Positions 14,768 through 55,150 of a stretch of 64,000 nucleotides of DNA are shown piece by piece. Source of the DNA: Nocardioides daedukensis (GTDB lineage: Bacteria > Actinomycetota > Actinomycetes > Propionibacteriales > Nocardioidaceae); the NCBI RefSeq assembly GCF_013408415.1, contig NZ_JACCAA010000001.1, forward strand, positions 2,542,001 through 2,606,000. Direction: 5' to 3'. The notes beneath the pieces are model-generated. The model was not told where the DNA came from. It was given only the letters and a program-made list of their open reading frames with translations, and did not search any database. A program made the position numbers and the translations under genes. Every line of letters starts with the position of its first letter. Within the stretch, counting starts at the first letter, position 1.

Positions 14768-14793
14768 CGCCGAGTCGGCAGTTGTTGACGCCC
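14768..14793. repeat. Family-1 repeat, single unit
   Basis: One copy of the motif whose core is GCCGAGTCGGCAGTTGTTGA, in the yceI-esterase intergenic region. It is identical over the core to units in the clusters at 15985, 32409 and 49321. No second unit lies within 60 bp, so this is a solitary copy. Confidence 0.85.
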
Positions 14794-14995
14794 GCCCCGA
14801 TGGCTCACGGCCATCGCGGCGACGCCGACGGATGTGGCCAGTGAGGGACTTTCGCTCACCACCATTGGGAAAAGTCGGAAAAGGTTGTGCGACCGACTTT
14901 TGGGTAAAGACGTGACGTGGGCCATACCCGCGTCGTACGCTCGCCCAACGCTTGATGGCCGGTCCGAAGCTCCGTGGCAGTGGAAGGTGAGGCAG

Positions 14996-15964
14996 ATGAT
15001 CAAGATCCACGCCCGACGCAGCGTCAGGTCCCTGGCCATCGGCGCGGCAGCAAAGACCATCGCCCGCCCCGCGTTCGCGTTGTTCCCCGCCACCGGGCCG
15101 CTCACGCCGCTGCTGCACTGCGTCGAGCTCGGCGCCGGGCTGGCGCCGCGGAACAAGGCGACGCGTCTGGAGCGCGTCGCCGGTGATGGCTGGACCGGCG
15201 AGTTGGTCACGCCTCGCGGTGGTCGTCCGGGCAAGGGCGCGATCGTCTACTTCCACGGCGGCGCCTTCCTCTTCTGCGGACTGGCCACGCACCGCCGGAT
15301 CGTCGAGCAGCTCTCCTTGCGGACTGGCATGCCGGTCCTCTCAGTGGCCTACCGGCAGCACGGCCGAGGTTTGGTCGACCAGAGCATCGCCGACTGCGTC
15401 GACGCCACGAACTGGATGATCCGCCGCGGCTTCAGCGCCGAGGAGCTGGTCCTCGCCGGGGACTCCGCCGGCGGACACCTGGCCTTCGCGGTCGCACTCG
15501 AAGCCACCGCGCAGGGCATCAACCCGGCCGGCATCGTCGGTCTCTCGCCCTGGCTGGAGTTCGACAACACCGAGCGTCGCAACCACCCCAACTTCCGACG
15601 CGACCACTACATCCCCTCGCGTCGCCTGGACGCGATCGCGCGGATGGTCACCGGAAAGCCGATCCTCGACCCGGCGATGTCCCCCGTGAACCGCGACCTC
15701 GCCAAGTTGCCGCCGGCACTGATCACCTGCGCCGCCGACGAGGTCCTTCGCTTCGACGCCGAGCTGATGACCGAGCGGCTCACTGCGGTCGGCGTACCGG
15801 TCCGCACACACGTCTTCGAGGGTCAGGTGCACGCGTTTCCGGTGCTTGCCGACCTGCTCCCCGAGAGCAGCAAGGCCGTGGACCTGGTCGCCGAGTTCGT
15901 CACCGAGCGGGTGGCTGCCTCGGCTCCGCGCCGGCTCAGGGCTGTCACCGACCTCGCCGTCTGA
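14996..15964 (+). CDS. Alpha/beta hydrolase of the HSL (esterase/lipase) family
   Basis: 322 residues from ATG 14996, preceded by GGAAGGTGAGG; a GTG three codons earlier is an alternative, and the long open frame upstream is non-family sequence. Oxyanion motif HGGAF is at about residue 87, the nucleophile elbow GDSAGGH at about 155, the Asp in CAADEVLRFDAEL and the His in GQVHAFPVL. Hormone-sensitive-lipase-type enzymes hydrolyse short acyl esters; no signal peptide, so cytoplasmic or membrane associated. It is convergent with the GNAT gene at 16146 across a family-1 repeat cluster. Confidence 0.88.
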   Translation: MIKIHARRSVRSLAIGAAAKTIARPAFALFPATGPLTPLLHCVELGAGLAPRNKATRLERVAGDGWTGELVTPRGGRPGKGAIVYFHGGAFLFCGLATHRRIVEQLSLRTGMPVLSVAYRQHGRGLVDQSIADCVDATNWMIRRGFSAEELVLAGDSAGGHLAFAVALEATAQGINPAGIVGLSPWLEFDNTERRNHPNFRRDHYIPSRRLDAIARMVTGKPILDPAMSPVNRDLAKLPPALITCAADEVLRFDAELMTERLTAVGVPVRTHVFEGQVHAFPVLADLLPESSKAVDLVAEFVTERVAASAPRRLRAVTDLAV

Positions 15965-15984
15965 CGCAACTTTCGCGCACACGC

Positions 15985-16136
15985 GGCGCCGAGTCGGCAG
16001 TTGTTGACGCCAAAGTTGGTCAACAAGTGCCGGGTCGGCGAGCTGGGGCGTCAACAACTGCCGACTCGGCGGGGGTTGGGGCGTCAACAAGTGCCGGGTC
16101 GCGGGGTTGGGGCGTCAACAACTGCCGACTCGGCGT
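15985..16136. repeat. Family-1 repeat cluster (five units) between convergent genes
   Basis: One plus-oriented unit (15988-16010) is followed by four units in the other orientation starting at 16019, 16050, 16083 and 16114, spacing 31, 33 and 31 bp. The inverted units alternate between CAACAAGTGCCGGGTCGGC (or one ending GTCGCG) and CAACAACTGCCGACTCGGC. Opposite units can pair into stems of more than 20 bp. The cluster fills the gap between the convergent esterase and acyltransferase genes, so a terminator-like role is possible, but there is no T-tract. Confidence 0.9.
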
Positions 16137-16145
16137 AATCGGGGG

Positions 16146-16700
16146 TCAGGGGGTGGTGGCCCAGGCCTCGCGGGTCAGGAAGGCGAACTGCGCGGTCTTG
16201 TCCGGCAGTTGCGCGACGTGCGCCTGGTCGGCGCCGATCCGGCCCAGCACCGCGATCGACTTCGCATTGCGTACGTCAGGCTCCAGGACCACCCGCTGGT
16301 GGCGCGGGTCGGTGAACATCCAGCGCGGCAGGAAGTCGAGAAGGGCCGCGGTGAGCCCCGCGGGGCGCGGGCCGGGGGCGAGCAGGAGGTGTACGCCGAC
16401 GTCGCCGGGTCGGCGGTCGTAGAACTGGCCGATCTCGTCGACGAACGGGTCGTAGGTCTGGAACAGCGCCCAGGGCGTCCCCTGCCATGAGGCCAGGTAG
16501 GCCGCGAGGTGCTCCTGCTCGTCGATGTAGGAGTAGATCTCGCCGACCTCCTCGGCCGACTTCTCACGCATCCCCCAGAACTCGGCGCGCTCCTGGGTGA
16601 CCCAGGAGTGGATCAGTGCGACATCACGCACCGGATCGACCGGGGTCAGCGTGATCTCGTCATCGACAGTGGTCATCGACGGGGTGGCGGGGATGCTCAC
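16146..16700 (-). CDS. GNAT acyltransferase, second siderophore N-acyltransferase
   Basis: 184 residues. It parallels the N-terminal domain of the fused protein at 18832-21180 throughout: LTPVDPVRDVALIHSWV, FWGM, ALFQTYDP, GDVGVHLLLAP, RVVLEPDVRNAKSIAVLGRIG and TAQFAFLTREAWA. This is the IucB/AlcB/DesC-type family that acylates the hydroxylamine of N-hydroxylysine or N-hydroxycadaverine from acyl-CoA. It is the last gene of the minus-strand siderophore operon, starting next to the acylase stop. Two acyltransferases in one cluster suggest two acyl groups in the product; that is an inference. Confidence 0.85.
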   Translation of the reverse strand: MSIPATPSMTTVDDEITLTPVDPVRDVALIHSWVTQERAEFWGMREKSAEEVGEIYSYIDEQEHLAAYLASWQGTPWALFQTYDPFVDEIGQFYDRRPGDVGVHLLLAPGPRPAGLTAALLDFLPRWMFTDPRHQRVVLEPDVRNAKSIAVLGRIGADQAHVAQLPDKTAQFAFLTREAWATTP

Positions 16701-18827
16701 TCAGGGCTCCTGGTCAGGGGTCAACTGAAGCAGGGCACCGGTGTGCCAGGCCGCGAACTGGTCGGTGCGATGCGGACTGTCGGGAGCCTCGTGGGCACCG
16801 AGCGGCACCGCCCAACGGCTCTGCGCGCGGTCGGCGAGGTCCCACACGAAGCGGGCCACCGGCCCGCGCACGCAGAGATCACTCCCGGGCACCCAGCTCA
16901 TCGCGGCGACACTGTCCATGTCGCCGGGCAGTGGCTCACCGCTCACGGCGAGGGGCTCGTCGGGCAGGCCGAACTGGGCCGCGCCGGTCAACGGCGTGAA
17001 CCGGTGCCGCTCACCCCACGAGGTGTGCCCGCCCGCGGTCTCGACCGCAGCGGCAACGGCCTCGAGCGACTCGCGCAGCAACGCGCCCACGTCGATGCCG
17101 ATCGACGTAGCGTGCTCGAGCAGCTTGGGCAGCGACTGACCGACCCGCGTGGCCAGGGCCAACCAGGGGCGGTACAGGGCGCCGTACGCCGTCCCGTCCG
17201 CAAGGTCGTCCGCGAGTGTGGCCAGGACCGGGTGGGCGCAGAGCCGGTCGGTGAACTCGGAGCGCAGCGCCGTGAACGCGGCCGCACCGAGCCCGTCGAC
17301 ACTCATCTCGCGGTCCCAGCCGGCCAGCACCTGCTGGAGCTCGGTCGCCCCCTCGCCCAGCCCGGTGGTCTCCGCGACCGCGGCGAGCAGCGACTCACCG
17401 CCCAGCTGACGAGCATCGAGCAGCGGGGTGATCGCGTCGGTGGCCGTGAGCGGGCCTGCCGCGTCCAGCAGCTCGCGGATCCGGTCCGCGCGCCACGACG
17501 CGGCGAAGTGGCTGGCCACCACCGAGAACTCCTCGGTGGCCCGGTCGTTCGCGCTCACGACGCGGCCGGTCTCGCCGGGACGGACCACCGGCAGCGTTGC
17601 CCAGCCGGTCCACTGGTGCTCGCTCGAGGAGGCGGGTACGACGCCGAACAGGTTGTCGATGTGGCGCTCGGGCACCCGACCGGCGACGCGGTGCACGACC
17701 GTTCCCTCGGTGTCGGCGATGACCCAGTTGTTGACCGGCTCCACCCAGTGACCGATCGCGGCCTCCACGTCGGCCACCTTCTTCGCCCGCAACAGCGGCA
17801 GCAGGGCCGCGAAGCCCAGGTCTCCCAGGTCGTGGGATGCGGTACGCAGGCTCAGGGCCCTTGCTCCACAGGGAAGTGGCTCCGAGTCCACGCCACCGAA
17901 GACGACCGGTCCGCGGGCGGTGACGATCACCTCGACCTCGCTCGGCCGGTCGGAGTCGTCGTTCTCGTCCTCGGGCCAGTGGTCGTCGGGCCAGTCCTCG
18001 TCGTCGTCATCGCCGAACCCCAGCTCGCCGCGGACCCGGATCTCCTCCACGAACGACTCGGCGGCCTCCCACCCATCCGGGCCGAGCGCCTCGACGCCGC
18101 CGGTGGGGGTACGCCGCAGCTCCTCGGCGTACAGGTCCTGGTAGTCACCCATCGCGTTGGTCAGTCCCCACGCCACCGAGCCGGTGTGCGCAAAGTGCTG
18201 CACGCCGGGCACGCCGGGGAAGCAGAAGCCCACGACGTCGAACTCGGGGCAGGACAGGTGCGTCTGCAGATAGACGTTGGGCGCCTCGAAGATCCGGTGC
18301 GGATCGCCGGCGATGATCGGGGCACCGGATGCGGTCCGCGCCCCGGTCACCGCATAGGCGTTGCTGCCCGAGACCGTCGGCGGCGCGACCGAGATCGCGC
18401 GCAGCCCGTCGGTGCCGAGCCGGTCGGCGATCGCTTGGCGCCACAGCTTCGACGGGAACGACCCGAAGTGGATCTGCTGCACCAGGAAGACCCCGCACGG
18501 GGACCACGGCATCCAGCGCCGCTCGCGCAGGGTGGCGTTGATGCCGTCGGTGAAGGCGACCAGGAACTCCTGGGTCTCGGCGTCGAGCACGTCGTAGGCC
18601 CGCTGCGCGATCGCGTCGATCCGCGCCTGGCGCGCGAACCGGTCCCACTCCAGGCCAGCCGGTCCCACCCGCTCGGCGGTGCGGCCCTCGCTGCGCAGCC
18701 GTTCGAGCTCGAGCTGGGCAGGGCGGGACGTGGCCTGCTCCGCCCCCTGGGCGAACGCCAGCGCGCCCAGTGAGTCGGCGCTGATGTGCGGGATGCCGTG
18801 CTGGTCGTGGAAGACATGTGAGCTCAC
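16701..18827 (-). CDS. Penicillin-acylase-family Ntn hydrolase in the siderophore operon
   Basis: 708 residues from GTG 18827, four bases after the preceding stop; a longer frame would overlap that gene and lacks the family start. VFHDQHGIPHISADSLGALAFAQGAEQATSRPAQLELERL is the alpha-subunit start of penicillin acylases, and SGSNAYAVTGARTASGAPIIAGDPH contains the Ser that becomes the N-terminal nucleophile after self-cleavage. There is no signal peptide, whereas most family members are exported, so it is probably cytoplasmic. Relatives occur next to desferrioxamine genes in streptomycetes, and PvdQ, a related acylase, trims an acyl chain during pyoverdine maturation. Editing or release of acyl groups on the siderophore or supply of an aryl acid are possible roles; unproven. 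Confidence 0.85.
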   Translation of the reverse strand: MSSHVFHDQHGIPHISADSLGALAFAQGAEQATSRPAQLELERLRSEGRTAERVGPAGLEWDRFARQARIDAIAQRAYDVLDAETQEFLVAFTDGINATLRERRWMPWSPCGVFLVQQIHFGSFPSKLWRQAIADRLGTDGLRAISVAPPTVSGSNAYAVTGARTASGAPIIAGDPHRIFEAPNVYLQTHLSCPEFDVVGFCFPGVPGVQHFAHTGSVAWGLTNAMGDYQDLYAEELRRTPTGGVEALGPDGWEAAESFVEEIRVRGELGFGDDDDEDWPDDHWPEDENDDSDRPSEVEVIVTARGPVVFGGVDSEPLPCGARALSLRTASHDLGDLGFAALLPLLRAKKVADVEAAIGHWVEPVNNWVIADTEGTVVHRVAGRVPERHIDNLFGVVPASSSEHQWTGWATLPVVRPGETGRVVSANDRATEEFSVVASHFAASWRADRIRELLDAAGPLTATDAITPLLDARQLGGESLLAAVAETTGLGEGATELQQVLAGWDREMSVDGLGAAAFTALRSEFTDRLCAHPVLATLADDLADGTAYGALYRPWLALATRVGQSLPKLLEHATSIGIDVGALLRESLEAVAAAVETAGGHTSWGERHRFTPLTGAAQFGLPDEPLAVSGEPLPGDMDSVAAMSWVPGSDLCVRGPVARFVWDLADRAQSRWAVPLGAHEAPDSPHRTDQFAAWHTGALLQLTPDQEP

Positions 18828-18831
18828 CGGA

Positions 18832-24010: not shown

Positions 24011-24027
24011 CGCGACTCCTTCCGAGA

Positions 24028-24046
24028 TAGGTAAGGCTTACCTTAG
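24028..24046. promoter_or_regulatory. DtxR/IdeR-type iron box
   Basis: TAGGTAAGGCTTACCTTAG is a near-perfect 19-bp palindrome matching the iron-box consensus TTAGGTTAGGCTMACCTAA in layout. It lies directly upstream of the siderophore operon, so Fe2+-loaded DtxR/IdeR/DmdR repressor would shut the operon when iron is sufficient. It could also affect the divergent hydrolase gene at 24134. Confidence 0.88.
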
Positions 24047-25015: not shown

Positions 25016-25025
25016 CGTGGTAGGC

Positions 25026-32098: not shown

Positions 32099-32409
32099 GT
32101 ACGACGACCCTGATCGTGTCCGCCTTCGTCCTGGGCGCCGCGACCTTCGCGATCCGCGCGGCCGGACCGTTCCTGCACACCCGGATCTCGATCGGCACTC
32201 GCTGGCTCGAACTGATGTCGCTCGCTGCGACGGTGTTGCTGGTTGCGCTGGCTGCCACGAGTGCGCTGGCCGACGGCGACGAGTGGAGCGACCCGGCGCG
32301 ACCCGCCGGCGTCGTGGTGGCCGGCGTACTCGCCTGGCGACGGGCGCCGTTCATGGTGATCGTGATCGCCGCAGCTGCCACCACCGCCCTGCTCCGTCTT
32401 CTTCTCTAG
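32095..32409 (+). CDS. azlD: AzlD-family exporter, small subunit
   Basis: 104 residues, ATG 32095 in the ATGA overlap with azlC. Three to four membrane segments; ATFAIRAAGPFLHTRI and VLAWRRAPFMVIVIAAAATTALLR match the AzlD family. Partner of AzlC. The stop TAG (32407-32409) touches a family-1 repeat cluster, so the repeats follow the gene immediately. Confidence 0.88.
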   Translation: MSTTTLIVSAFVLGAATFAIRAAGPFLHTRISIGTRWLELMSLAATVLLVALAATSALADGDEWSDPARPAGVVVAGVLAWRRAPFMVIVIAAAATTALLRLLL

Positions 32410-32493
32410 TCGAGTCGGCAGTTGTTGACGCCCGAGGTGGTCAACAACTGCCGGGTCGGCGGGTTGGGGCGTCAACAACTGCCGACTCGGCGT
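32409..32493. repeat. Family-1 repeat cluster (three units) after azlD
   Basis: One plus unit (32409-32432) and two inverted units starting at 32440 (CAACAACTGCCGGGTCGGC, a mixed variant) and 32471 (CAACAACTGCCGACTCGGC), 31 bp apart. The first and third can pair over more than 20 bp. It lies between azlD and the aldehyde dehydrogenase, both on the plus strand. Confidence 0.9.
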
Positions 32494-38855: not shown

Positions 38856-39000
38856 AACTGATGGGTTGGGCATCCAAATCCGCCGGTTTTCGACCCCAAA
38901 GCATCAGTTGCTGGCCCGCCCGACCCCAACCCATCAGTTTGTCGCAGCCACGGATCCGAACCCATCAGTTGGTTGCCCCGCCGACCCCAACCCATCAGTT
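38856..39000. repeat. Family-3 repeat cluster (five units) between convergent genes
   Basis: Core units AACTGATGGGTTGGG (38856-38870) and, in the other orientation, CCCCAAAGCATCAGTT (38894-38909), CCCCAACCCATCAGTT (38924-38939 and 38985-39000) and a CCGAACCCATCAGTT copy (38956-38970). Successive starts are about 30-32 bp apart. The GGG and CTT core variants are both present. The cluster lies between the MFS gene and the convergent maleylpyruvate isomerase-like gene. Confidence 0.88.
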
Positions 39001-39026
39001 GCCGCACCCACTTCCGAGTGAGGCGT

Positions 39027-39601: not shown

Positions 39602-40606
39602 TCAGCTCCCGACGTAGCGCTCGGGAAGATCGGCCTCGGTGAGGACGGTGGGCAGTCCGAAGGTCTCGAAGATGCCCTCGCCGAAGAAGGCGCTGACCTT
39701 CGCGACCTTGGTTCCGTCGAGCTGCAGGACCTGGAGCTGGAAGGGGGTGAAGGTGCCGTCCGGTTGGGCCATGTAGAGGCCGTACGCCGGCTGCCCGTTG
39801 GCGAGGGTGGAGAGCATCGGCATGTCGTGGGTGCCGCCGGGGCACTGGGTGTCGATGAGGCGCCCGATGTTCTCGTTGCCGATGTACCAACCGGTGAAGG
39901 GCGGCATCTCCCAGACGGCGTCGCGCTTGAGCATGCCGACGATCGCCTCGATGTCCTTGCGCCAGAACGCGTCGACGTAGGAGTCGAGCATCGCCTTCTG
40001 CTCGATGTTCAGCGCCTCGTGCGGGCTCTCCGCCGTCAGGCCGGCCTCGGCCATCTGCGCGTGGGCGCGCTGCAGGGCGGAGTTCACCGCAGCGGGGGTC
40101 GTCTCCAACGCCTCGGCGACCTCCTTGGCCGACCAGCGCAGGACGTCGCGCATGATCAGTACGGCGCGCTGCCGGGCGGGCAGGTGCTGCAGGGCGGCAA
40201 CGAACGCGAGCCGGATGGTGTCCCGCTCCTCGACCACGACCGCCACGTCGGGGATCGGTTCGAGCCAGGGAATCTCGGAGTCGGTGATCAGCTCGGCGCC
40301 CGGATCGGAATCGACGGTGCCCAGCCCGGTCGGCAGCGGGCGGCGGTCCTTACCCTCCAAGTTGGTCAGGCAGACGTTCGTCGTGATCCGGTAGAGCCAG
40401 GTCCGCACCGAGGAGCGACCCTCGAAGTTGTGATAGGCCTTCCACGCCCGCAGGTAGGTCTCCTGGACCAGGTCCTCGGCGTCGGCCATCGAGCCGGTCA
40501 TCCGATAGCAGTGCGCGATCAGCTCGCGACGGAAACCGTTCGCCACGTCCTGGAAGTCATCCCGCTCGGGAGCTTGGGTCTCGGTCTCGATGTCTGTGGT
40601 GCTCAT
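39602..40606 (-). CDS. ECF sigma factor with SnoaL-like C-terminal domain (SigG/TIGR02960 type)
   Basis: 334 residues from ATG 40606. Region 2: FRRELIAHCYRMTGSMADAEDLVQETYLRAWKA; region 4: ALQHLPARQRAVLIMRDVLRWSAKEVAEALETTPAAVNSALQRA. Residues about 205-330 are a SnoaL/NTF2-like domain (LDSYVDAFWRKDIEAIVGMLKRDAVWEMPPFTGWYIGNENI), which in this sigma group modulates activity in place of a classical anti-sigma factor. It leads a two-gene unit with the MDMPI-like protein. The trigger cannot be told from sequence. Confidence 0.92.
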   Translation of the reverse strand: MSTTDIETETQAPERDDFQDVANGFRRELIAHCYRMTGSMADAEDLVQETYLRAWKAYHNFEGRSSVRTWLYRITTNVCLTNLEGKDRRPLPTGLGTVDSDPGAELITDSEIPWLEPIPDVAVVVEERDTIRLAFVAALQHLPARQRAVLIMRDVLRWSAKEVAEALETTPAAVNSALQRAHAQMAEAGLTAESPHEALNIEQKAMLDSYVDAFWRKDIEAIVGMLKRDAVWEMPPFTGWYIGNENIGRLIDTQCPGGTHDMPMLSTLANGQPAYGLYMAQPDGTFTPFQLQVLQLDGTKVAKVSAFFGEGIFETFGLPTVLTEADLPERYVGS

Positions 40607-40675
40607 GCTCTGCCTCCAATGGCCGCGTCTCAGTCTGCCCTGAGATGTGGACCGGCCGCCACCGCCAAATTCATC

Positions 40676-40718
40676 GCGAACCTGCACTTGTTGTGGCGCG
40701 AACCTGCAGTTGTTGTCG
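40676..40718. repeat. Family-2 repeat pair, 22-bp period
   Basis: Two units GCGAACCTGCACTTGTTG and GCGAACCTGCAGTTGTTG begin at 40676 and 40698, exactly 22 bp apart. On the minus strand the cores read CAACAAGTGCAGGTTCG and CAACAACTGCAGGTTCG, the same C/G alternation as in family 1. They lie in the shared upstream region of the sigma factor and the VOC gene. Confidence 0.85.
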
Positions 40719-40797
40719 TGTCGATGAGTTTGTCCGGCATTGCTGGTCTGACCCTGCGAGACCGGCAACTGGTGCCGGTGAACATGAGGAGTGCGCG

Positions 40798-41178
40798 ATG
40801 ACCATGATCTTCCCGAACCTGCCGGTCAAGGACGTGGAGAAGTCGAAGCGGTTCTGGACCGCCCTGGGGTTCTCGTTCAACGACGACTTCAGCAGCGAGG
40901 ACGCCGCCTGCCTGGTGATCAACGAGTCGGCCAGCGTGATGCTCCTGTCGGAGAGGTTCTTCCACGGCTTCCACGACACCACTCCGCACACGGGCACCGA
41001 GATCCTGATGGGCCTCGGCGTGGCCAGCCGCGACGAGGTCGACCGGCTCTGCGACGCCGCCGAGGCCGCCGGTGGCAGCGACACCGAGACCAGGGTCGAC
41101 CAGTCGCCGATGTATGGCGGTTCCTTCCGCGACCTGGACGGACACATCTGGGAGCCGCTGTGGATGGAGATCGCCTGA
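40798..41178 (+). CDS. VOC (glyoxalase/dioxygenase superfamily) protein
   Basis: 126 residues from ATG 40798. PNLPVKDVEKSKRFWTALGFSFNDDFSSEDAACLVI and GGSFRDLDGHIWEPLWMEI give the paired beta-alpha-beta modules with the C-terminal D-G-H-x-W-E metal/exit signature. This subgroup resembles YaeR/PhnB-type proteins of unknown substrate. It could respond to the divergent ECF sigma factor. A family-1 cluster follows the stop. Confidence 0.85.
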   Translation: MTMIFPNLPVKDVEKSKRFWTALGFSFNDDFSSEDAACLVINESASVMLLSERFFHGFHDTTPHTGTEILMGLGVASRDEVDRLCDAAEAAGGSDTETRVDQSPMYGGSFRDLDGHIWEPLWMEIA

Positions 41179-41190: not shown

Positions 41191-41247
41191 GCGCCGAGCC
41201 GGCAGTTGTTGACGCTCGGGCGGGGTCAACAAGTGCCGGGTCGGCGG
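41191..41247. repeat. Family-1 repeat pair between convergent genes
   Basis: A plus unit (41193-41215, with GAGCCGG in place of GAGTCGG) and an inverted CAACAAGTGCCGGGTCGGC unit (41225-41245). They form a stem between the VOC gene and glpD, which ends four bases after the cluster. Confidence 0.85.
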
Positions 41248-43378: not shown

Positions 43379-43405
43379 GTGACCCCAGAACATACTGCCA
43401 GCGAG

Positions 43406-45882: not shown

Positions 45883-45890
45883 GCCCAGGT

Positions 45891-47227: not shown

Positions 47228-47261
47228 TGAATCAGGCGGCCGGGAACCGGGAGAGGCTGCC

Positions 47262-47954: not shown

Positions 47955-47969
47955 ACTAGGTTCGACGGC

Positions 47970-49319
47970 GTGACCGCACACGAGCCTGCCCCTCAGTTTC
48001 CTGCGAGCTTCCGTTTCGGCGCCAGCACGGCGTCGTACCAGATCGAGGGGGGTGTGGACGCCGGCGGACGCGGCCCGAGCATCTGGGACACCTTCTGTGC
48101 CGAGCCCGGCCGGATCCTTGACGGTTCGTCGGGCGCGCAGGCGTGCGACCACTACAACAGGTATCCCGAGGACGTGGCCCTGCTGAAGGGGCTGGGTGCG
48201 GACGGCTATCGGTTCTCGATCGCCTGGCCGCGGATCCAGCCGCTCGGCTCGGGGCGGGCCAACGGTGAGGGGTTGGGCTTCTATGACCGGCTCCTCGACG
48301 AGCTGCTCGAGGCCGGCGTCGAGCCGATGGCGACGCTCTATCACTGGGACTTGCCGCAGGCTCTTGAGGACGATGGCGGCTGGTTGAACCGCGACACCGC
48401 GGACCGGTTCGCCGAATATGCGACCCTCTGCGCGATGCGGTTCGGGGACCGGATCAAGCAGTGGATCCCGGTCAACGAGCCCAACGTGGTCGCGCTGATG
48501 GGCTACGCGCTGGGGATGCACGCGCCCGGCAAGGCCCTGATGTTCGACGCGTTGCCCGCCGCGCACCACGTCCTGCTCGCGCACGGCAAGGCCGTCCAGG
48601 CCCTGCGCGCGGTCGGCGCCAAGCAGATCGGGTGTGCCAACAACCATGCTCCGATGTGGCCCGAGAACCAGACCCCCGAGGCGTTGGCGGCGACCCAGGT
48701 CTTCGACGACCTGTGGAACAACCTGTTCGCCGACCCGATGCTGACCGGTGAATATCCCACCGGTTTCGCCGAGCAGATGCCCGCTGCCAAGGGTGGTTCG
48801 GTCGCCGACGACCTGGCCCTGATCGGGGCGCCGCTCGACTTCTACGGGGTGAACTACTACAACCCGTTCCAGGTCGGTGCCGCCCCCGAGGGGGCCGAGA
48901 TGCCGTTCGAGTATCGCGACATCGAGGGCTACCCGAAGACCGATTTCGGCTGGCCGGTGGTGCCGGACGGGTTGCGCGAGCAGCTCGTGCACCTGCGCGA
49001 CCGCTATCCGAACCTGCCGCCGGTGGTGATCACCGAGTCCGGCTGTGCCTACAACATGGAGCCGGATGCCTCGGGTGTGGTCGACGACCAGCCCCGGATC
49101 GACTACCTGGACTCGCACCTGCGCGCGGTCGCCGATGCGATGGCCGAGGGTGTCGACGTGGCCGGCTATTACACGTGGTCGCTGATGGACAACTTCGAAT
49201 GGTCGGAGGGCTATTCGCAGCGGTTCGGCCTGGTGCACGTCGACTACGACACCCAGGTGCGGACCCCGAAGCGGTCCTATGACTGGTTCCGCTCCGTGAT
49301 CGCCGCCTCCCGCCCCTGA
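47970..49319 (+). CDS. Beta-glucosidase, glycoside hydrolase family 1
   Basis: 449 residues from GTG 47970; sequence upstream is the pirin gene in reverse. FRFGASTASYQIEGGVDAGGRGPSIWDTF is the GH1 N-terminal signature; acid/base Glu in VNEPN (about residue 170) and nucleophile Glu in VITESG (about 355); WSLMDNFEWSEGY closes the barrel. No signal peptide, so it cleaves cello-oligosaccharides or glycosides inside the cell. The stop is directly followed by a family-1 cluster. Confidence 0.95.
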   Translation: MTAHEPAPQFPASFRFGASTASYQIEGGVDAGGRGPSIWDTFCAEPGRILDGSSGAQACDHYNRYPEDVALLKGLGADGYRFSIAWPRIQPLGSGRANGEGLGFYDRLLDELLEAGVEPMATLYHWDLPQALEDDGGWLNRDTADRFAEYATLCAMRFGDRIKQWIPVNEPNVVALMGYALGMHAPGKALMFDALPAAHHVLLAHGKAVQALRAVGAKQIGCANNHAPMWPENQTPEALAATQVFDDLWNNLFADPMLTGEYPTGFAEQMPAAKGGSVADDLALIGAPLDFYGVNYYNPFQVGAAPEGAEMPFEYRDIEGYPKTDFGWPVVPDGLREQLVHLRDRYPNLPPVVITESGCAYNMEPDASGVVDDQPRIDYLDSHLRAVADAMAEGVDVAGYYTWSLMDNFEWSEGYSQRFGLVHVDYDTQVRTPKRSYDWFRSVIAASRP

Positions 49320-49320
49320 C

Positions 49321-49468
49321 GCCGAGTCGGCAGTTGTTGACGCCTGTTTGCGCCGACCCGGCACTTGTTGACGCCTCTTCCCGCCGAGTCGGCAGTTGTT
49401 GACGCGTTCTTCCGTCGAGTCGGCACTTGTTGACAACCGGTTGTCGGTGAACAACTGACGGGTCGGCG
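49321..49468. repeat. Family-1 repeat cluster (five units) between convergent genes
   Basis: Four plus units start at 49321, 49351, 49382 and 49413, a 30-31 bp period, alternating CGGCAGTTGTTGAC and CGGCACTTGTTGAC types; a divergent inverted unit (CAACTGACGGGTCGGCG) ends the cluster at 49468. Between GH1 and the convergent dienoyl-CoA reductase gene. Confidence 0.9.
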
Positions 49469-49492
49469 AATGCGGGGCGGTGCGGGGTGGTG

Positions 49493-51556
49493 TCAGAGCG
49501 CGGCTGCGACTCGCGTGCCCTGCTCGATCGCCCGCTTCGCGTCCAGCTCGGCTGCGACATCGGCACCGCCGATCAGGTGGACACGCCGTGCTCCACGGAC
49601 CGCGGTGGCGTCAACAACTGCCGGGTCGGTGAGGGCGTCGTGGAGTGCCCGCACCGACTCCTGCCCAGCGCAGAGCACCACGTGGTCCACGTCGAGGACC
49701 TGACTGGTCACCTCCCCCGAGGCCGACGTGACGGTGATGTGCAGACCGGCGTCGTCGACCTTGTCGTAGAAGACCCCGGGCACCAGGTGCACGCCGGAGT
49801 CCTTGAGCACGGCCCGGTGCGCCCAACCCGATGTCTTGGCCAGGCCGCGACCGATCGAGGTGGACTTGCGCTGGAGCAGCCAGACCTCGCGCAACGGCGT
49901 ACGCGCCTTCTTCTCCATCAGGCCGCCGCGGTGCAGCGACGGATCGCCGACGCCCCAGTGCGCCATCCAGGCGTCCAGATCTGCCGGGCTGCCGTCGTGC
50001 GGTTCCTCGGCGAGGAAGTGGCTCATGTCGACGCCGATGCCGCCCGCGCCGATCACGGCCACCTTGGCGCCGACCGTCACGGCCCCGGAGAGGACCTGGT
50101 CGTAGCGGACCACCTTGGCGTGGTCGACGCCCGGGAAGGACGGCACCCGTGGGGTGACGCCGGTGGCGACGATGACGTCGTCGAAGCCGGCCAGGTCGGC
50201 GGGCGTCGCCTCAGTGGAGAGGCGTACGTCGACCCCGAGCACCTCGAGCCGGCGGCCGTAGTAGCGCAGCGTCTCGCGGAAGTCCTCCTTGCCGGGCACC
50301 ATCATCGCCAGCCGGAACTGGCCGCCGATCGACGCGGACTTCTCGAAGAGGGTGACCGCGAGGCCGCGCTCGGCAGCGGAGACGGCAGCCGCGAGCCCGG
50401 CCGGACCGGCCCCCACCACGGCGACGCGCTTGCGGGACCGGGTCGGCGACAGCACCAAGGTGGTCTCGCGGCAGGCGCGTGGGTTGACCAGGCAGGAGGC
50501 GTGCTTGTTCGAGAAGACGTGGTCCAGGCAGGCCTGGTTGCAGGCAATGCAGGTGTTGATCTCGTCCGCGCGACCCGAGGCGGCCTTGTTCACGATCTCG
50601 GGGTCGGCCAGGAACGGACGCGCCATCGAGACCAGGTCCGCGCCACCCGTCGCGAGGATGTCCTCGGCGGTGGCGGGGGAGTTGATCCGGTTGGAGGCGC
50701 AGACCGGGATCGAGACCTCGGGCTTGAGGCGTGCGGTGTGGTCGCGCCAGGCGCCCTGCGGGACCTGGGTGATGATCGTCGGGACACGGGCCTCGTGCCA
50801 GCCGATGCCCGTGTTGAGCAGGCTGACCCCGGCCTCCTCGAGCCGCTTGGCCAGCTCGACGATCTCCTCCCAGGTCTGGCCGCCCTCGACCAGGTCGAGC
50901 AGGGAGATCCGGTAGCCGATCATGAAGTCGTCGCCGACCAGTTCACGCGCCCGACGCACGATCTCGAGGGGGAATCGCATCCGGTTGCTCGCCGTACCGC
51001 CCCACTTGTCGTCGCGGTCGTTCGTGCGCGCCGCGAGCATCTGGTTGATCAGGTAACCCTCCGAGCCCATGATCTCGACGCCGTCATAACCGGCCTTGCG
51101 GGCCAGCGCGATCGCCTTGGCGAAGTCGGTGGCGGTCGCATCGACGCCCTTCGTGGACAGCGCCGAGGGCTTGAACGGGGTGATCGGGGACTTCTTCGTC
51201 GACGCGGAGACGCTGTACGGCGTGTAGCCGTAGCGCCCCGCGTGGAGCACCTGCAAGGCGATCTTGGAGTCGTGCTCGTGCACCGCGTCGGTGATCTGCC
51301 GGTGCCGGGCGGCGTGCAGACGGGTGCTGAACTGCGAGCCGAGCGGTTTGAGCTGCCCGCGGAAGTTGGGCGAGTAGCCGCCGGTGATGATCAGCCCGGC
51401 ACCCCCCTTGGCGCGCTCGGCGAAGTACGCCGCCAACTTGCCGGTGTTCCAGAAGAAGTCCTCGAGGCCGGTGTGCATCGAGCCCATCACCACCCGGTTG
51501 CGCAGCGTCGTCGACCCGATGGTGATCGGCGAGAGCAGGTGCGGGAAGTCGTTCAT
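49493..51556 (-). CDS. NADH:flavin oxidoreductase, 2,4-dienoyl-CoA reductase-like
   Basis: 687 residues in three parts: an Old Yellow Enzyme barrel (1 to about 370), an iron-sulfur segment CIACNQACLDHVFSNKHASCLVNPRAC, and FAD (KRVAVVGAGPAGLAAAVSAAERG) plus NADH (AKVAVIGAGGIGVDMSHFL) modules. This is the FadH layout; the YEGVEIMGSEGYLINQMLAARTNDRDDKWGG block fits. FadH-type enzymes reduce 2,4-dienoyl-CoA during unsaturated fatty acid degradation; a steroid or enoate substrate is an alternative. A family-1-like motif lies inside the gene near its 3' end (49609-49630). Confidence 0.88.
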   Translation of the reverse strand: MNDFPHLLSPITIGSTTLRNRVVMGSMHTGLEDFFWNTGKLAAYFAERAKGGAGLIITGGYSPNFRGQLKPLGSQFSTRLHAARHRQITDAVHEHDSKIALQVLHAGRYGYTPYSVSASTKKSPITPFKPSALSTKGVDATATDFAKAIALARKAGYDGVEIMGSEGYLINQMLAARTNDRDDKWGGTASNRMRFPLEIVRRARELVGDDFMIGYRISLLDLVEGGQTWEEIVELAKRLEEAGVSLLNTGIGWHEARVPTIITQVPQGAWRDHTARLKPEVSIPVCASNRINSPATAEDILATGGADLVSMARPFLADPEIVNKAASGRADEINTCIACNQACLDHVFSNKHASCLVNPRACRETTLVLSPTRSRKRVAVVGAGPAGLAAAVSAAERGLAVTLFEKSASIGGQFRLAMMVPGKEDFRETLRYYGRRLEVLGVDVRLSTEATPADLAGFDDVIVATGVTPRVPSFPGVDHAKVVRYDQVLSGAVTVGAKVAVIGAGGIGVDMSHFLAEEPHDGSPADLDAWMAHWGVGDPSLHRGGLMEKKARTPLREVWLLQRKSTSIGRGLAKTSGWAHRAVLKDSGVHLVPGVFYDKVDDAGLHITVTSASGEVTSQVLDVDHVVLCAGQESVRALHDALTDPAVVDATAVRGARRVHLIGGADVAAELDAKRAIEQGTRVAAAL
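49609..49630. repeat. Family-1 unit inside the dienoyl-CoA reductase coding sequence
   Basis: CAACAACTGCCGGGTCGG (plus strand) is the mixed family-1 variant. On the coding strand it reads DPAVVDAT, 21 residues before the VHLIGG motif neighbourhood. The position in a surface-type linker before the final NAD module suggests the motif was tolerated in frame. Confidence 0.7.
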
Positions 51557-51581
51557 CAGGATTCCTTCTTCGATCGGTGTC

Positions 51582-51668
51582 GCACAACAAGTGCCGGTTC
51601 AACGCGCAAGATCTGCAGGTTCGACGCTCAAGAACTGCCGGTTCGGCGCGCAACAACTGCAGGTTCGT
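51582..51668. repeat. Family-2 repeat array, four units at exactly 22 bp
   Basis: Units start at 51582, 51604, 51626 and 51648. Cores read CAACAAGTGCCGGTTC, CAAGATCTGCAGGTTCG, CAAGAACTGCCGGTTCG and CAACAACTGCAGGTTCG. The last two units lie within the padR coding sequence and supply its C-terminal residues and stop. Confidence 0.85.
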
Positions 51669-52191
51669 GGGCTTGGAGGTAGTCGGTGAGCCAGTCGATC
51701 CAGAACTGCTCCATGCGGACCCCGCCGCGCAGCACCAGGTAGATGTCGAGCTCGCGACCGGTCAGGGCGGGTGGGTCCGGATAGTCCCGCGCCTCCATCG
51801 ACTCATAGAGGGCGAGTCGCTGGGTGTGCTCGACGAGCTTGGCCCGGGCCTGCTCGATCAACGCTGCGCGGTCGCCGTACGACGCTCCGCGGAACTTGAC
51901 CATCAGCTCGGAACGGAGCGGTTCGACCGCGGTGGGTTCGGCCAGCCAGCGTTCGAGCTCGAGGCGGCCCGGCTCGGTGACCTCGTAGACCTTCTTGTCC
52001 GGGCGGCCCTGCTGCGCGACCACCTCAGAGCGGACCCAGCCGTCGCGCTCCATCCGGCCGAGGACCCGATAGATCTGCTGGTGGCTCGCGGTCCAGAAGT
52101 GGCCGATCGACTTGTCGAAGCGCCGGGTCAGCTCCAGACCGGACGCGGTGCGCTCGCTCAGGGAGACCAGGAGGGCGTGTTCGAGGGCCAT
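51628..52191 (-). CDS. PadR-family transcriptional regulator
   Basis: 187 residues. N-terminal winged helix: ALLVSLSERTASGLELTRRFDKSIGHFWTASHQQIYRVLGRMERDGWV; QQGRPDKKVYEVTEPGRLELERWL is the wing; the C-terminal half is the Vir-like helical dimer region. The final residues EPAVVARRTGSS are encoded by two family-2 repeat units, so the natural C-terminus appears to have been extended or replaced by the repeat. A 14-bp palindrome is 22 bp upstream, probably its operator. Divergent from the racemase gene. Confidence 0.9.
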   Translation of the reverse strand: MALEHALLVSLSERTASGLELTRRFDKSIGHFWTASHQQIYRVLGRMERDGWVRSEVVAQQGRPDKKVYEVTEPGRLELERWLAEPTAVEPLRSELMVKFRGASYGDRAALIEQARAKLVEHTQRLALYESMEARDYPDPPALTGRELDIYLVLRGGVRMEQFWIDWLTDYLQAHEPAVVARRTGSS

Positions 52192-52212
52192 GCGGCCATG
52201 GTGACCTACCTA

Positions 52213-52226
52213 TGCAACTAGTTGCA
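52213..52226. promoter_or_regulatory. Perfect palindrome, PadR operator candidate
   Basis: TGCAACTAGTTGCA is a perfect 14-bp palindrome 22 bp upstream of padR, in the padR-racemase divergent region. Placement supports autoregulation by PadR. Confidence 0.6.
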
Positions 52227-52271
52227 AGCCCTTGGTCCAGATGCTGATGGATGAGACCGGACCTGTTGACC

Positions 52272-52290
52272 GTGACAGTAGATCTGTCAC
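52272..52290. promoter_or_regulatory. Inverted repeat before the racemase gene
   Basis: GTGACAG and CTGTCAC flank five bases (52272-52290), 10 bp before ATG 52300. It overlaps the ribosome-site region and could be an operator for an unidentified regulator. Confidence 0.45.
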
Positions 52291-52299
52291 AATCGCGCC

Positions 52300-53457
52300 A
52301 TGACTTTCGAACTCGGCCGGGGAACCGGTCCGCTGCGTGGTGTCAAGGTCGTCGAGATCGCCGGCATCGGCCCGAGCCCGCACGCCTGCATGATCCTTGC
52401 GGACCTCGGCGCGGACATCATCCGGATCGAGCGCCCGGGCGGGCAGATGCTCGCCGGCGGTTCGACCGACCTGCTCAACCGAGGTCGCCCGAGCGTCGCG
52501 CTCAACCTCAAGGACCCCGCCGCTGTGGCCACCGTGCTCGACCTGATCGAGACCGCTGACGTGCTCGTCGAGGGGATGCGCCCCGGCGTCACCGAGCGGA
52601 TGGGCCTGGGCCCCGACGACGCGCTCGCGCGCAACCCGAAGCTGGTCTATGCCCGGATGACCGGATGGGGCCAGACCGGCCCGTTCGCCCAGGTCGCCGG
52701 GCACGACATGAACTACATCGCCATCACCGGCACCCTGCATGGGCTGGGCCAGGACAAGTCCAAGCCGATGTTCCCGGCCAACCTCGTCGGCGACTTCGGC
52801 GGCGGGTCGACGTACCTCGTGATGGGCATCCTGGCCGCACTCCTCGAGTCGCGCACCAGTGGCGAGGGCCAGGTCGTCGACGCTGCGATCATCGACGGCA
52901 CCGCGCACCTGAACGCGATGACCGCGGCCTTCGTGGCCAGCGGCAACTTCAACGAGGAGCGCGCCTCGAACCTGCTCGACGGCGGCGCGCCCTACTACGA
53001 CATCTATGAGACCTCCGACGGCAAGCACATGTCCGTCGGCGCCCTCGAGCCCCAGTTCTACGAGGTCTTCGTGGACCTGCTCGGGATCCGCGACCAGGCC
53101 CCCGACCGCTTCGACCTCTCGAAGTATGACGAGCTGCGCACCGTGATCGAGAAGGCCTTCGCATCCCGCACCCAGGCCGAGTGGATCGAGGTCTTCGAGG
53201 GCACTGACGCCTGCGTCGCCGGGATCATCCCGATGACCGAGGCGTTCAACCACCCGCAGATGAAGGCTCGCGAGGTCTTCGTCGAGCACGAGGGGATCAC
53301 CCAGCCCGCCCCGGCGCCGCGGTTCTCGCGCACCGAGCCGACCCTGGGCTTGCCGCCGGCCGCGAAGGCCGGCATCCACACCCGCGAGGCGCTGACCGCC
53401 TGGGGCGTGGCCAACGTCGATGAGCTCCTCGAGAGTGGTGCCGCGGTCCAGGCCTGA
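52300..53457 (+). CDS. Alpha-methylacyl-CoA racemase / CaiB-type CoA transferase family
   Basis: 385 residues. GPLRGVKVVEIAGIGPSPHACMILADLGADIIRIERPGG is the family start; MTGWGQTGPFAQVAGHDMNYIAITGTLHGLG gives the His and NLVGDFGGGSTYLVMGILAALLES the Asp used by alpha-methylacyl-CoA racemase. It would interconvert 2R- and 2S-methyl acyl-CoA so that branched fatty acids or sterol side chains can enter beta-oxidation. Fits beside the dienoyl-CoA reductase. Confidence 0.92.
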   Translation: MTFELGRGTGPLRGVKVVEIAGIGPSPHACMILADLGADIIRIERPGGQMLAGGSTDLLNRGRPSVALNLKDPAAVATVLDLIETADVLVEGMRPGVTERMGLGPDDALARNPKLVYARMTGWGQTGPFAQVAGHDMNYIAITGTLHGLGQDKSKPMFPANLVGDFGGGSTYLVMGILAALLESRTSGEGQVVDAAIIDGTAHLNAMTAAFVASGNFNEERASNLLDGGAPYYDIYETSDGKHMSVGALEPQFYEVFVDLLGIRDQAPDRFDLSKYDELRTVIEKAFASRTQAEWIEVFEGTDACVAGIIPMTEAFNHPQMKAREVFVEHEGITQPAPAPRFSRTEPTLGLPPAAKAGIHTREALTAWGVANVDELLESGAAVQA

Positions 53458-53517
53458 TCCTGGCTCGGTTTCACGAACGCGGTTGTACGAAAGTCCGTAT
53501 TTCCGTAATATCGAGGT

Positions 53518-54045
53518 ATGGAAGATGCTGCCGACCTCGAACGCGACCTCGCCGACCTGCGCGAACGCGTGGAGCGCCTCGAGTCCCGCACGACTGCACC
53601 GACGGCTTCTCCCGGTGCGCCCGGACCCGACGAGGACACCTTCTGGGCGCTCGAAGGAGTGCGTGCCAGGCGTGACGCGCACCCGGAGACTGCCGACGGG
53701 ATCGTGCTGCTCACCGGTTCGCTGAACCTGCCCACCGGCGAGCCCGTCGAGTGGCAGATGGGGGCCGCGACCTCCGATCTGGTCGGGACCGACTGGAGTG
53801 ACGCGGCGGCGCCACTTGCCGCGCTCGGCCACCCGGTCCGCCTCAAGCTCCTTCGATCCGTCCTGGACGGAGTGCGCAGCACCGCCGAGCTCGCCGAGAG
53901 CCTGGGCAGCACCGGGCAACTGCACCATCACCTCAAGCAACTGGTCTCAACGGGCTGGCTGGCACAGCGCGGACGCGGCAACTATGAGGTGCCGCCGACC
54001 CGCGTCGTACCCCTGCTCGTGATCCTGACAGGAGTGCTCCGATGA
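53518..54045 (+). CDS. ArsR-like winged-helix regulator with N-terminal coiled coil
   Basis: 175 residues. An N-terminal heptad segment (EDAADLERDLADLRERVERLESR) predicts a coiled coil; a middle segment has no recognised fold; the C-terminus (PLAALGHPVRLKLLRSVLDGVRSTAELAESLGSTGQLHHHLKQLVSTGWLAQRGRGNYEV) is an ArsR-type winged helix. No metal-binding cysteines. It overlaps the M23 gene by four bases (ATGA), implying a regulator-peptidase pair. Confidence 0.82.
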   Translation: MEDAADLERDLADLRERVERLESRTTAPTASPGAPGPDEDTFWALEGVRARRDAHPETADGIVLLTGSLNLPTGEPVEWQMGAATSDLVGTDWSDAAAPLAALGHPVRLKLLRSVLDGVRSTAELAESLGSTGQLHHHLKQLVSTGWLAQRGRGNYEVPPTRVVPLLVILTGVLR

Positions 54046-54866
54046 TCGACTTCCTCCAGCGCAACGCGATGCGCACCATCCTGCTCGGCATGCTGCTCGC
54101 CTTCGGTACGCCGATCATGCAGCGCTTCGCCGACCTGCCCTCGTGGGTCGGGCTGTTCGAGACCGCGGGCATCGTGCTCGTCCTGGTCGGCCTGGCGATG
54201 GCCTTCCTCTTCTCCGGCAAGGACTCCGACGCCGACCCGATCACGGTGCACAGCCCGGTCGGCGGGCGCTGGCTGGCGATGAACTCCCCGGCCAGCAAGG
54301 TGCCAAGCCACGGCGTACGAGCCTATGGACAGGCGTTCGCCATCGACCTTCTCCACGAACCCGAGGACGGCGTGCGCCCGCAGTTCGGCACCGGCTCGGG
54401 GATGTCCGACCCCAAGGAATATCCCGCCTTCGGTGAGCCGGTCCTGGCCATGGTCGACGGCGTCGTCGTGAAGGCCGCCGACCGGCAGCGCGACCATCGC
54501 ACCCGCACCCACTGGTGGTCGGTGGCGGTGATGATGCTCGAGGGGGTCTTCCGCGAACTGCGCGGCGCCGGCGGAGTCGTCGGCAACCATGTCGTGATCG
54601 ATCGCGGCGACGGGGTCTTCGCGCTGGTCGCACACCTCAAGAAGGGCTCGGCCACGGTCAAGGTCGGCGACAGGGTGCGGGCCGGCGACGTGATCGGCGC
54701 CTGCGGGAACTCCGGCAACACCAGCGAGCCGCACGTGCACGCACAACTGATGGATCGGGCGCGGCCGAGCGCGGCCAAGGGGCTGCCGATGGCCTTCGCC
54801 GACGTACGCCTCGGTGGCGAGACCCGCGACGGGCTGCCGGAGAACACGGCGTACGTCGTCGCCTGA
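54042..54866 (+). CDS. M23-family (LytM) metallopeptidase with two membrane segments
   Basis: 274 residues. Two hydrophobic segments near residues 10-28 and 38-58 anchor the protein. The peptidase domain shows SHGVRAYGQAFAIDL (first His and Asp), then VVIDRGDGVFALVAHLKKGSATVKVGDRVRAGDVIGACGNSGNTSEPHVHAQLMD with the H-x-H zinc site. Intact LytM enzymes cut peptidoglycan cross-bridges. Coupling to an HTH gene makes it a candidate output or sensor. The family-3 array follows the stop. Confidence 0.85.
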   Translation: MIDFLQRNAMRTILLGMLLAFGTPIMQRFADLPSWVGLFETAGIVLVLVGLAMAFLFSGKDSDADPITVHSPVGGRWLAMNSPASKVPSHGVRAYGQAFAIDLLHEPEDGVRPQFGTGSGMSDPKEYPAFGEPVLAMVDGVVVKAADRQRDHRTRTHWWSVAVMMLEGVFRELRGAGGVVGNHVVIDRGDGVFALVAHLKKGSATVKVGDRVRAGDVIGACGNSGNTSEPHVHAQLMDRARPSAAKGLPMAFADVRLGGETRDGLPENTAYVVA

Positions 54867-54884
54867 TCCGTACGGGTGGCGCCC

Positions 54885-55150
54885 AACTGATGGGTTGGGG
54901 ATGCCGGGCAGACAACTGATGCTTTGGGAGTTGCTCGGGCTAGCCAACTGATGGGTTGGGGTAGACCAGGCAAAACTGATGCTTTGGGGACGATATTGGG
55001 GTGTTCTGGACGACCAACCCATCAGTTTCCGCAGAGCCTCCCGCCAACCCATCAGTTTCCGCAGAGCCTCCCGCCAACCCACCAGTTACCGCAGAGCCTC
55101 CCGCCAACCCATCAGTTACCGCAGCGCCTCCCGCCAACCCATCAGTTGCC
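54885..55150. repeat. Family-3 repeat region with a five-copy 30-bp tandem array
   Basis: Four spaced plus units start at 54885, 54913, 54945 and 54973, alternating CAACTGATGGGTTGGGG and CAACTGATGCTTTGGG types. Then five opposite-strand copies of a 30-bp unit start at 55014, 55044, 55074, 55104 and 55134; each contains CCAACCCATCAGTT followed by CCGCAGAGCCTCCCG-like sequence with a few substitutions. The 459 bp between the M23 gene and psd contain nothing else. There are no unique spacers, so it is not a CRISPR array. Confidence 0.92.

Follow-up and report, generated by a model that had tools for sequence, protein, structure and literature searches.

What are the short, near-identical sequences that recur between genes in this 64-kb window (the whole stretch of DNA analyzed) of the Nocardioides daedukensis genome, and does their regular spacing point to a protein that reads them?

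Repeat units and their placement

The first-pass annotation had recognized three families of short repeats, and all three were recovered when motif counts were compared with chance in the window and with reversed controls in the whole genome. CAACAASTGC had 20 exact matches in the 64-kb window against a chance mean of 0.11, while CAACTGATG had 8 matches against 0.21. The genome-wide motif search that the annotation had proposed found the repeat unit, 22 bp in length, about 220 times in the 3.81-Mb genome (G000) as compared to 6 times for the reversed control: CAACAASTGCCGRSTCGGC with up to two mismatches gave 113 + 110 matches (control 2 + 4), the family 2 pattern 31 + 37 (control 0 + 0) and the family 3 pattern with up to one mismatch 35 + 35 (control 0 + 1). 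These counts cover the whole genome, with positions given for part of the matches. Rfam models gave 0 matches to the window at the gathering score. The idea that families 1 and 2 are variants of one design was supported, each having cousins with a changed middle in relatives. A C/G switch after CAACAA had been described as two alternating variants; the switch is present (C in 98, G in 20 and T in 1 of 119 units), but the alternation is irregular and confined to some arrays. By reading, GCCGACTCGGC is a palindrome that closes the family 1 unit, and no palindrome of this kind is found in families 2 and 3 or in the unit of the relative G002.

Gap types were assigned from our own gene calls, made with a codon-usage caller, and they agreed with the earlier placement of four clusters in convergent gaps. 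These are a family 1 array at 15987..16135 (order - + + + +, plus-unit steps of 31, 33 and 31 bp), a family 3 array at 38856..39001 (step ~30 bp), a family 1 facing pair at 41192..41246 between a glyoxalase-like and a glpD-like gene, and a family 1 array at 49320..49467 (order - - - - +, step 31 bp). Tandem gaps hold a family 1 array at 32408..32492 (order - + +), a plus-strand family 2 array at 51583..51670 (step 22 bp) that reaches into a PadR-like gene at its 3' end, and a family 3 array at 54884..55150 (plus then minus units, step ~30 bp). Divergent gaps hold a single minus-strand family 1 unit at 14768..14789 and a minus-strand family 2 array of two units at 40675..40716 (step 22 bp), the latter between a sigma factor gene and the glyoxalase-like gene. 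A single plus-strand family 1 unit at 49610..49631 lies within coding sequence, in an Oxidored_FMN/Pyr_redox_2 gene. Apart from the facing pair and the two single units, all of these were detected by Tandem Repeats Finder, with periods of 31, 22 and 30.

A sample of 464 kb was made up of the window and 20 further stretches of 20 kb, taken at even spacing. Of its 62 exact CAACAASTG matches, 58 fell outside called genes, in a non-genic space of 44,933 bases. An equal density inside genes, which the annotation had set against the idea of phased sites, was thus not seen. Arrays were enriched at convergent gene ends, occupying 13 of 61 convergent gaps as compared to 7 of 259 other gaps, and tandem and divergent gaps also hold arrays.

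Spacing and orientation of the units

The distance between neighboring units of the same orientation is quantized. Among 64 such steps, 22 bp occurred 6 times, 29-33 bp 46 times (31 bp in 36 of them), 41-44 bp 11 times and 66 bp once, and none measured 23-28 or 34-40 bp. This sample comprised the 464-kb sample and 21 loci picked via the CAACAASTGCCGRSTCGGC search, so that it is partly biased towards exact units, and most of its 22-bp steps come from family 2 units that the family 1 matrix picked up. The peaks near 22 and 31 bp on which the annotation had staked the phased-site idea are therefore real, and to its two steps (22 and 30-31 bp) a third of 41-44 bp has to be added; family 3 steps of ~30 bp are slightly under three helix turns. 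The 9-bp spacers of the 31-bp step were no more alike between arrays (0.41) than column composition predicted (0.43), while the units had a likeness of 0.87. Since the step holds although the spacers are unrelated, it is imposed and not merely inherited.

We also detected arrays de novo in named loci, using the best 80 of 189, of which 68 are titled Nocardioides. At a period of 10.5 bp the resultant was 0.65 with a phase of 0.34 bp for 47 of the 52 arrays, five with a period outside 18-66 bp and gaps below 25 or above 700 bp being left out; 10.5 bp was not a unique peak of the periodogram, which gave 0.67 at 10.0 bp (phase 1.83 bp) and 0.56 at 11.0 bp. Together with the quantized steps, this periodicity supports the whole-turn spacing proposed earlier, and the phasing of units to about whole helix turns is well supported.

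Both strands are used, as the annotation's mixed orientation implied, but their order is not random. Both orientations were present in 23 of 29 multi-unit arrays, and 26 junctions were head-to-head as compared to 2 tail-to-tail, with minus units on the left and plus units on the right. Nearly all arrays have this dyad order whatever the type of gap, so that orientation appears to follow the center of the array more than one gene. The gaps between facing units cluster at -2/0, 8-12 and 20-21 bp.

We interpret the arrays as phased double-stranded DNA sites for a putative sequence-specific protein, probably serving as a two-sided transcription stop or insulator, and give this reading a probability of about 0.5. 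From the geometry, the protein would be expected to take one direction on every 22-bp unit and to bind neighboring units cooperatively, since these are separated by roughly two, three or four helix turns and mirrored about a center. In the proposed arrangement, with arrays just 3' of the stop codons of facing genes, polymerase from either gene would meet the units from the same side, and a filled array could stop or insulate RNA polymerase in both directions.

Arrays in relatives and other genera

Genes of all genera were called with the caller trained on G000. Steps of 22 or 31-32 bp were the commonest in the named loci, with 24 of the 52 arrays, and were seen in 0 of 13 arrays from 36 stretches of other genera. 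At least 10 family-1-like units were present in 9 of 128 genomes of the genus. Units are species-specific: between species their ends are alike and their middle is variable, and the exact double unit had no match in the other named genomes (own genome excluded). The short outer-end motif, whose one-strand density was highest in one tandem class, was too unspecific for a genus-wide detector, at 0.5 per kb in genes. A two-unit BLAST query found no match in phage or plasmid collections, and an origin from either was rejected on this ground. One lone unit was present in one viral contig.

In the relative G003 all 14 same-orientation steps measured 31 bp, with spacers that are repeated within an array and different between arrays; several of its stretches had been picked around exact units. 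At the place of the in-gene unit 49610, G003 has three units at 31 + 31 bp. This spacing does not keep the reading frame, and the constraint therefore acts on DNA. In line with the phased-site reading, relatives carry elements of other families at the gene ends of two window sites. Units are also more conserved than spacers. Across 11 copies of a repeat in G101, conservation was 0.93-0.98 in unit columns, 0.75 in the spacer and 0.63-0.68 in the flanks, with unit 3 excluded as fixed by the search and 2 of 13 copies (L284 and L295) dropped as lacking the upstream part.

Other observations in relatives bear on the main rival, in which the arrays are REP/BIME-like repeats: an unknown copying process would spread short elements and set their spacing without a bound protein, and convergent gaps would tolerate them best because nothing is disrupted there. 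Comparison of syntenic gaps, which the annotation had suggested, showed that array positions are mostly unshared with G003 and G125, as such mobility predicts. The 41192..41246 pair is missing at the same junction in G003 and G125, where glpD overlaps its neighbor. Dispersal is further favored by G101, whose array is carried within a larger dispersed repeat, and by tandem copies with identical spacers, present in G003 and in a single G000 array that steps by 43 bp. The many short intergenic copies (223 versus 6; 58 of 62 outside genes) are also a REP/BIME trait. REP/BIME units are, however, imperfect palindromes, linked in many hosts to a Y1 transposase (RAYT), while many units here (family 2, family 3 and G002) lack a palindrome. 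PF01797 (Y1 transposase/RAYT) had no match in the genome, though it matched 5 of 14 control genomes, and PF00078 (reverse transcriptase) was not found in the genome either; RAYT-driven REP and retroelement copying were rejected accordingly. The mobile-repeat alternative of the annotation thus retains dispersal in one relative but not its transposase, and spacers random in sequence but fixed in length also argue against it. We consider it possible but rather unlikely.

RNA hairpins and topology sites

Facing units could instead form long hairpins in both transcripts, with a role as two-sided terminators or in stabilizing 3' ends; we regard this as unlikely. Four folded both-orientation arrays had z-scores of -2.0 to -6.7, and the frequency of such arrays suits this explanation, whereas three folded one-orientation arrays (z -0.2 to -0.9) were no better than shuffles. 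The best facing pair was slightly more alike within than between arrays (p 0.017), and facing units agreed slightly better than shuffled partners (p 0.027), as RNA pairing would also produce; yet agreement was stronger for direct neighbors than for facing units, so that local duplication suffices. Nor does a stem need whole-turn steps or whole-turn facing gaps. The terminator-like stems of the annotation therefore fit both-orientation arrays, but neither one-orientation arrays nor the quantized steps.

Arrays occupy the same position as intrinsic terminators between convergent genes, but consist of repeated, sequence-constrained units and do not have a GC hairpin with a downstream T run: one-orientation arrays showed no excess of folding, and hairpins outside units occurred in 1 of 13 array gaps. 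After length matching, hairpin terminators were found in 1 of 11 gaps with arrays versus 11 of 24 without in G000 (p 0.055) and in 4 of 9 versus 26 of 42 in the named loci (p 0.46). Because the exclusion weakens in this way, it is unsafe as proof of a terminator role. By reading, one junction carries a GC hairpin in some species, units in others and both in some.

Recruitment of gyrase or a general nucleoid protein to positively supercoiled convergent ends, as with gyrase at E. coli BIMEs, is very improbable, since such general proteins are conserved while the unit changes between species, even though the arrays prefer convergent gaps and a phased, mirrored array could wrap DNA. LexA boxes, DnaA boxes, integron attC sites, CRISPR-like arrays and ParB sites were also considered, by reading alone.

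Comparison with known systems and significance

REP/BIME clusters are described as short, species-specific and intergenic, with both orientations clustered, often between convergent genes, and as bound by gyrase and IHF (PMC1525189). The arrays share the former features but have 22-bp units, several kinds of them without a palindrome, quantized steps and random spacers, and no Y1 transposase was found. Mycobacteriophage stoperators (PMC9283540) are asymmetric sites with a direction, lie in short intergenic spaces and have immunity-group-specific sequences; they serve as a working model for polymerase stop. The arrays are likewise asymmetric sites in short intergenic spaces, but stoperators are 13-mers of phage genomes with more than 20 per genome, whereas here 22-bp units form phased, mirrored chromosomal arrays. 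The TAACTGA direct repeats of Beggiatoaceae are similarly abundant and intergenic, of unknown role (PMC4679880); they are heptamers mostly upstream of start codons, while the 22-bp units lie mostly at convergent gene ends.

The phased-site reading may be extended, tentatively, to the genus: many convergent Nocardioides genes might be ended by a directional DNA-binding protein on helix-phased units that blocks RNA polymerase on both sides, in place of hairpin terminators, with protein and unit changing together into species dialects, much as phage stoperators differ by immunity group. T-rich intrinsic terminators are scarce in high-GC actinobacteria, and to our knowledge it is not settled how transcription ends and facing genes are separated in these organisms. 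Phased, oriented and replaceable arrays offer a concrete handle on transcription ending between facing genes, and would show a genome-wide set of sites that changes its sequence while keeping its geometry.

Repeat arrays and their geometry

The three motif families of short repeat units lay where the first-pass annotation had placed them in the window, and their counts were far above chance. The window corresponds to bases 2,542,001-2,606,000 of G000, a genome in one contig of 3,809,834 bases. Across this genome, the family 1 pattern CAACAASTGCCGRSTCGGC with up to two mismatches gave 223 matches versus 6 for the reversed control pattern; the family 2 and family 3 patterns gave 68 (control 0) and 70 (control 1). 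The motifs did not prove to be scattered through genes: in a 464-kb sample of G000, 58 of 62 exact CAACAASTG occurrences were outside called genes, and the top enriched intergenic 9-mers and 12-mers were mostly parts of the repeat motifs. The repeat arrays are a real feature, present in several Nocardioides species and arranged close to the helix.

Geometry was measured in the 464-kb sample plus 21 loci picked via exact units, where a weight matrix built on the 22-bp family 1 unit GTCAACAASTGCCGRSTCGGCG located the copies. In this partly biased set the spacing histogram had the peaks near 22 and 31 bp that had been anticipated; the 64 steps between same-orientation units were 22 bp (6), 29-33 bp (46, of which 36 were exactly 31 bp), 41-44 bp (11) or 66 bp (1), and none fell at 23-28 or 34-40 bp. 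Gaps between facing units were 8-12 bp in 22 cases, 20-21 bp in two and -2 or 0 bp in two. Plus units lay to the right and minus units to the left with the CAACAA ends pointing to the centre, and head-to-head junctions outnumbered tail-to-tail ones by 26 to 2.

We scored gaps with at least 20 bp of unit as array-bearing in the 464-kb sample. Arrays occupied 13/61 convergent gaps as compared to 2/110 (++), 2/84 (--) and 3/65 divergent gaps (convergent versus all others, p = 3.6e-6), and the partly biased geometry set had 21 of its 33 multi-unit arrays in convergent gaps. The array start in G000 was often only a few bases from a stop codon. By reading, at several gene ends (L184, L225, L231, L235 and L245) the stop codon TGA apparently sits inside CGCTGACC, where the outermost unit has its outer end.

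Distribution among relatives

The loose pattern CMACAMSNNNNGRNTCGGCG reached at least 10 matches in 9 of 128 Nocardioides genomes (G000 122, G018 62, G003 33, G135 23, G002 20, G101 20, G093 14, G015 11 and G036 10; controls 0-1 in those nine). The stricter pattern CMACAASNNNCGRSTCGGCG matched at least once in 22 of the 296 genomes sampled from the class, a set lacking G003 and G018, and gave more than two matches only in G000 (109) and G101 (16). As sampled, the family 1 form of the motif is limited to the genus, while other genera may carry arrays of other motifs. Unit variants kept the ends and changed the middle (CAACACGTGCCGACTCGGCG in G003, CCACAAGGGGAGATTCGGCG in G002 and, by reading, CCACAAGCCCCGACTCGGCG in G018). 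Family 2 had any match in 4/98 genomes and family 3 in 2/59, almost all matches being in G000. A 22-bp cousin of family 2 was present in G003 and in G125, which ranks among the two nearest genomes when the glpD-like protein is compared (79% identity).

G125 also had, at two convergent gaps (58992-59053 and 77112-77180 of the joined stretch, L115/L136/L137 region), GTGTGGGTYCTGAC ... GTCAGAACCCACAC as an inverted pair separated by 11 bases; the family is unrelated and the facing design alike. Two convergent gaps of G003 (L061:19242-19399 and L062:18424-18522) held long inverted repeats with a common GATAGTCCCT end.

A de novo gap search of 80 loci in named genomes, the best 80 of 189 matching the window's glpD-like protein (68 titled Nocardioides; 1.5 Mb), yielded 52 arrays, of which 24 lay in the 134 convergent gaps, with period peaks at 22 bp (11 arrays) and 31-32 bp (13 arrays). 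For the 47 arrays with a period of 18-66 bp, the resultant was 0.65 at 10.5 bp (phase 0.34 bp), 0.67 at 10.0 bp (phase 1.83 bp) and 0.56 at 11.0 bp, so the data do not single out an exact helical repeat. Our own calculation puts exp(-nR2) at ~2e-9 for 10.5 bp, a value inflated by kinship of the species. The same test in other genera yielded 13 arrays in 36 stretches (719 kb), none with a period of 21-22 or 31-32 bp, the nearest being 20 (two), 23 and 33. Five of 57 convergent gaps there bore an array, four of the five in genera that belong to the same family as Nocardioides, so the possession of arrays does not set the genus apart; their periods do, as far as sampled. Another genus carried GACCCGCTGACGCACC as a 16-bp direct array where convergent genes end (L260:2551 region).

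Origin of the 31-bp step

Between arrays, family 1 units had an identity of 0.87, while the 36 nine-base spacers belonging to steps of exactly 31 bp had 0.41 (column composition predicts 0.43); within arrays these spacers reached 0.52. All 14 same-orientation steps of G003 were 31 bp in ten stretches, four of them picked around motif matches, and its spacers were alike inside one array and unlike from array to array. Since spacers repeat within arrays and differ between them, we infer that the 31-bp spacing was not simply inherited and that each array arrived at it independently.

G101 has a three-unit array, common to 11 of 13 fetched copies, in which two units overlap head-to-head by 10 bp and a 31-bp step follows. 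All 11 copies aligned without gaps; conservation was 0.93 and 0.98 for the two units that the search had left free, 0.75 for the spacer and 0.63-0.68 for the flanks. The array sits within a larger repeat, itself dispersed, whose halves are GGTTTCGAGAC ... CTCAACCA and which was seen at L284-L296 in G101 and at L062:13665-14261 in G003.

Inside an Oxidored_FMN + Pyr_redox_2 gene, one and the same place holds a single unit in G000, three units within an open reading frame in G003 (steps 31 + 31 bp) and a different inverted element in G125. Because the reading frame changes with each step of 31 bp, the constraint on the step is one acting at the DNA level.

Terminators and RNA folding

Hairpins outside the units were found in 1/13 array-bearing convergent gaps of the G000 sample versus 16/24 without arrays (at least 40 bp; p = 6.6e-4), and in 1/11 versus 11/24 at a free length of at least 40 (p = 0.055). 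The corresponding figures for the 80 loci were 6/20 versus 64/90 (p = 0.0014), 4/9 versus 26/42 after length matching (p = 0.46), and 1/20 versus 17/90 for hairpins with a T run (p = 0.19). A link to terminators, with arrays replacing hairpins at convergent ends, is suggestive only.

Terminator-like RNA stems had been proposed as an alternative, and folding agreed with this for one class of array: four both-orientation arrays folded strongly (z -2.0, -4.1, -6.5 and -6.7), whereas three one-orientation arrays did not (z -0.2, -0.7 and -0.9). RNA pairing between facing units may make some contribution to their agreement. At variable columns facing units agreed slightly more than shuffled partners (86/125 versus 76.9, p = 0.027), with a small excess when the best facing pair of each array was taken (p = 0.017) and a lesser one for the outermost pair (p = 0.064). 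Direct neighbours, however, agreed more strongly (198/285 versus 169.5; 0 of 5000 shuffles as high), and local duplication suffices to account for the agreement of units.

Turnover at matching junctions

We compared the nine intergenic array sites of the window with relatives, and at two of them the relatives bore array-like elements where the same gene ends. At 32408, a single unit resembling the family 2 cousin is present in G003, whereas in G125 the matching gene ends in four 21-bp units that belong to another family; at 49320, the right-hand gene end bears its own four-unit array in G003 and an inverted pair in G125. None was seen at the other seven sites, where some junctions were not syntenic. 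At 41192, G000 has a unit pair; in G003 and G125 the glpD-like gene there overlaps its glyoxalase-like neighbour.

The gap downstream of the YceI-family gene was readable in 21 genomes (19 of the 80 loci, the window and G003), and in 15 the next called gene was on the opposite strand. By reading, several of the 15 had a GC hairpin without units; L223, L225 and L243 had units beside or around a hairpin; and L231, L245 and L246 had units facing each other without another clear hairpin. L227 and L232, with the next gene on the same strand, likewise had facing units.

On either side of the family 2 pair in G000 lie TCATCG and CGATGA halves, which are found again in G003 and G125 where the pair is missing. 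At window positions 39605-40798 a sigma factor gene, whose end weakly matches SnoaL-like domains, stands divergent to a glyoxalase-like gene. The adjoining genes at 9667-10370, with a weak Phd/YefM antitoxin match (below the curated cut-off) and a strong PIN_2 match, are likely a toxin-antitoxin pair.

Dispersal and proposed role

Dispersal is a question separate from that of a binding protein. A REP-like mobile repeat, also suggested by the first-pass annotation, fits the arrays riding in larger dispersed repeats in G101, but Y1 transposase is absent from the G000 genome, as is reverse transcriptase. The Nocardioides arrays stand next to REP/BIME clusters (PMC1525189) and stoperators (PMC9283540); the TAACTGA repeats of Beggiatoaceae (PMC4679880) are another intergenic direct-repeat case. 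Judged by titles and the openings of abstracts, no account of such arrays was found in mostly open-access literature on Nocardioides repeats or convergent or helically phased repeats, which argues weakly for novelty.

Four features call for a mechanism: the spacing stays quantised although the sequence of the spacers does not persist, the units stand in mirrored order, the arrays sit where genes end, and unit sequences differ from species to species. A putative dedicated, directional DNA-binding protein that binds cooperatively would account for all four. Since the arrays sit at gene ends, we propose that they may act as a two-sided stop or insulator.
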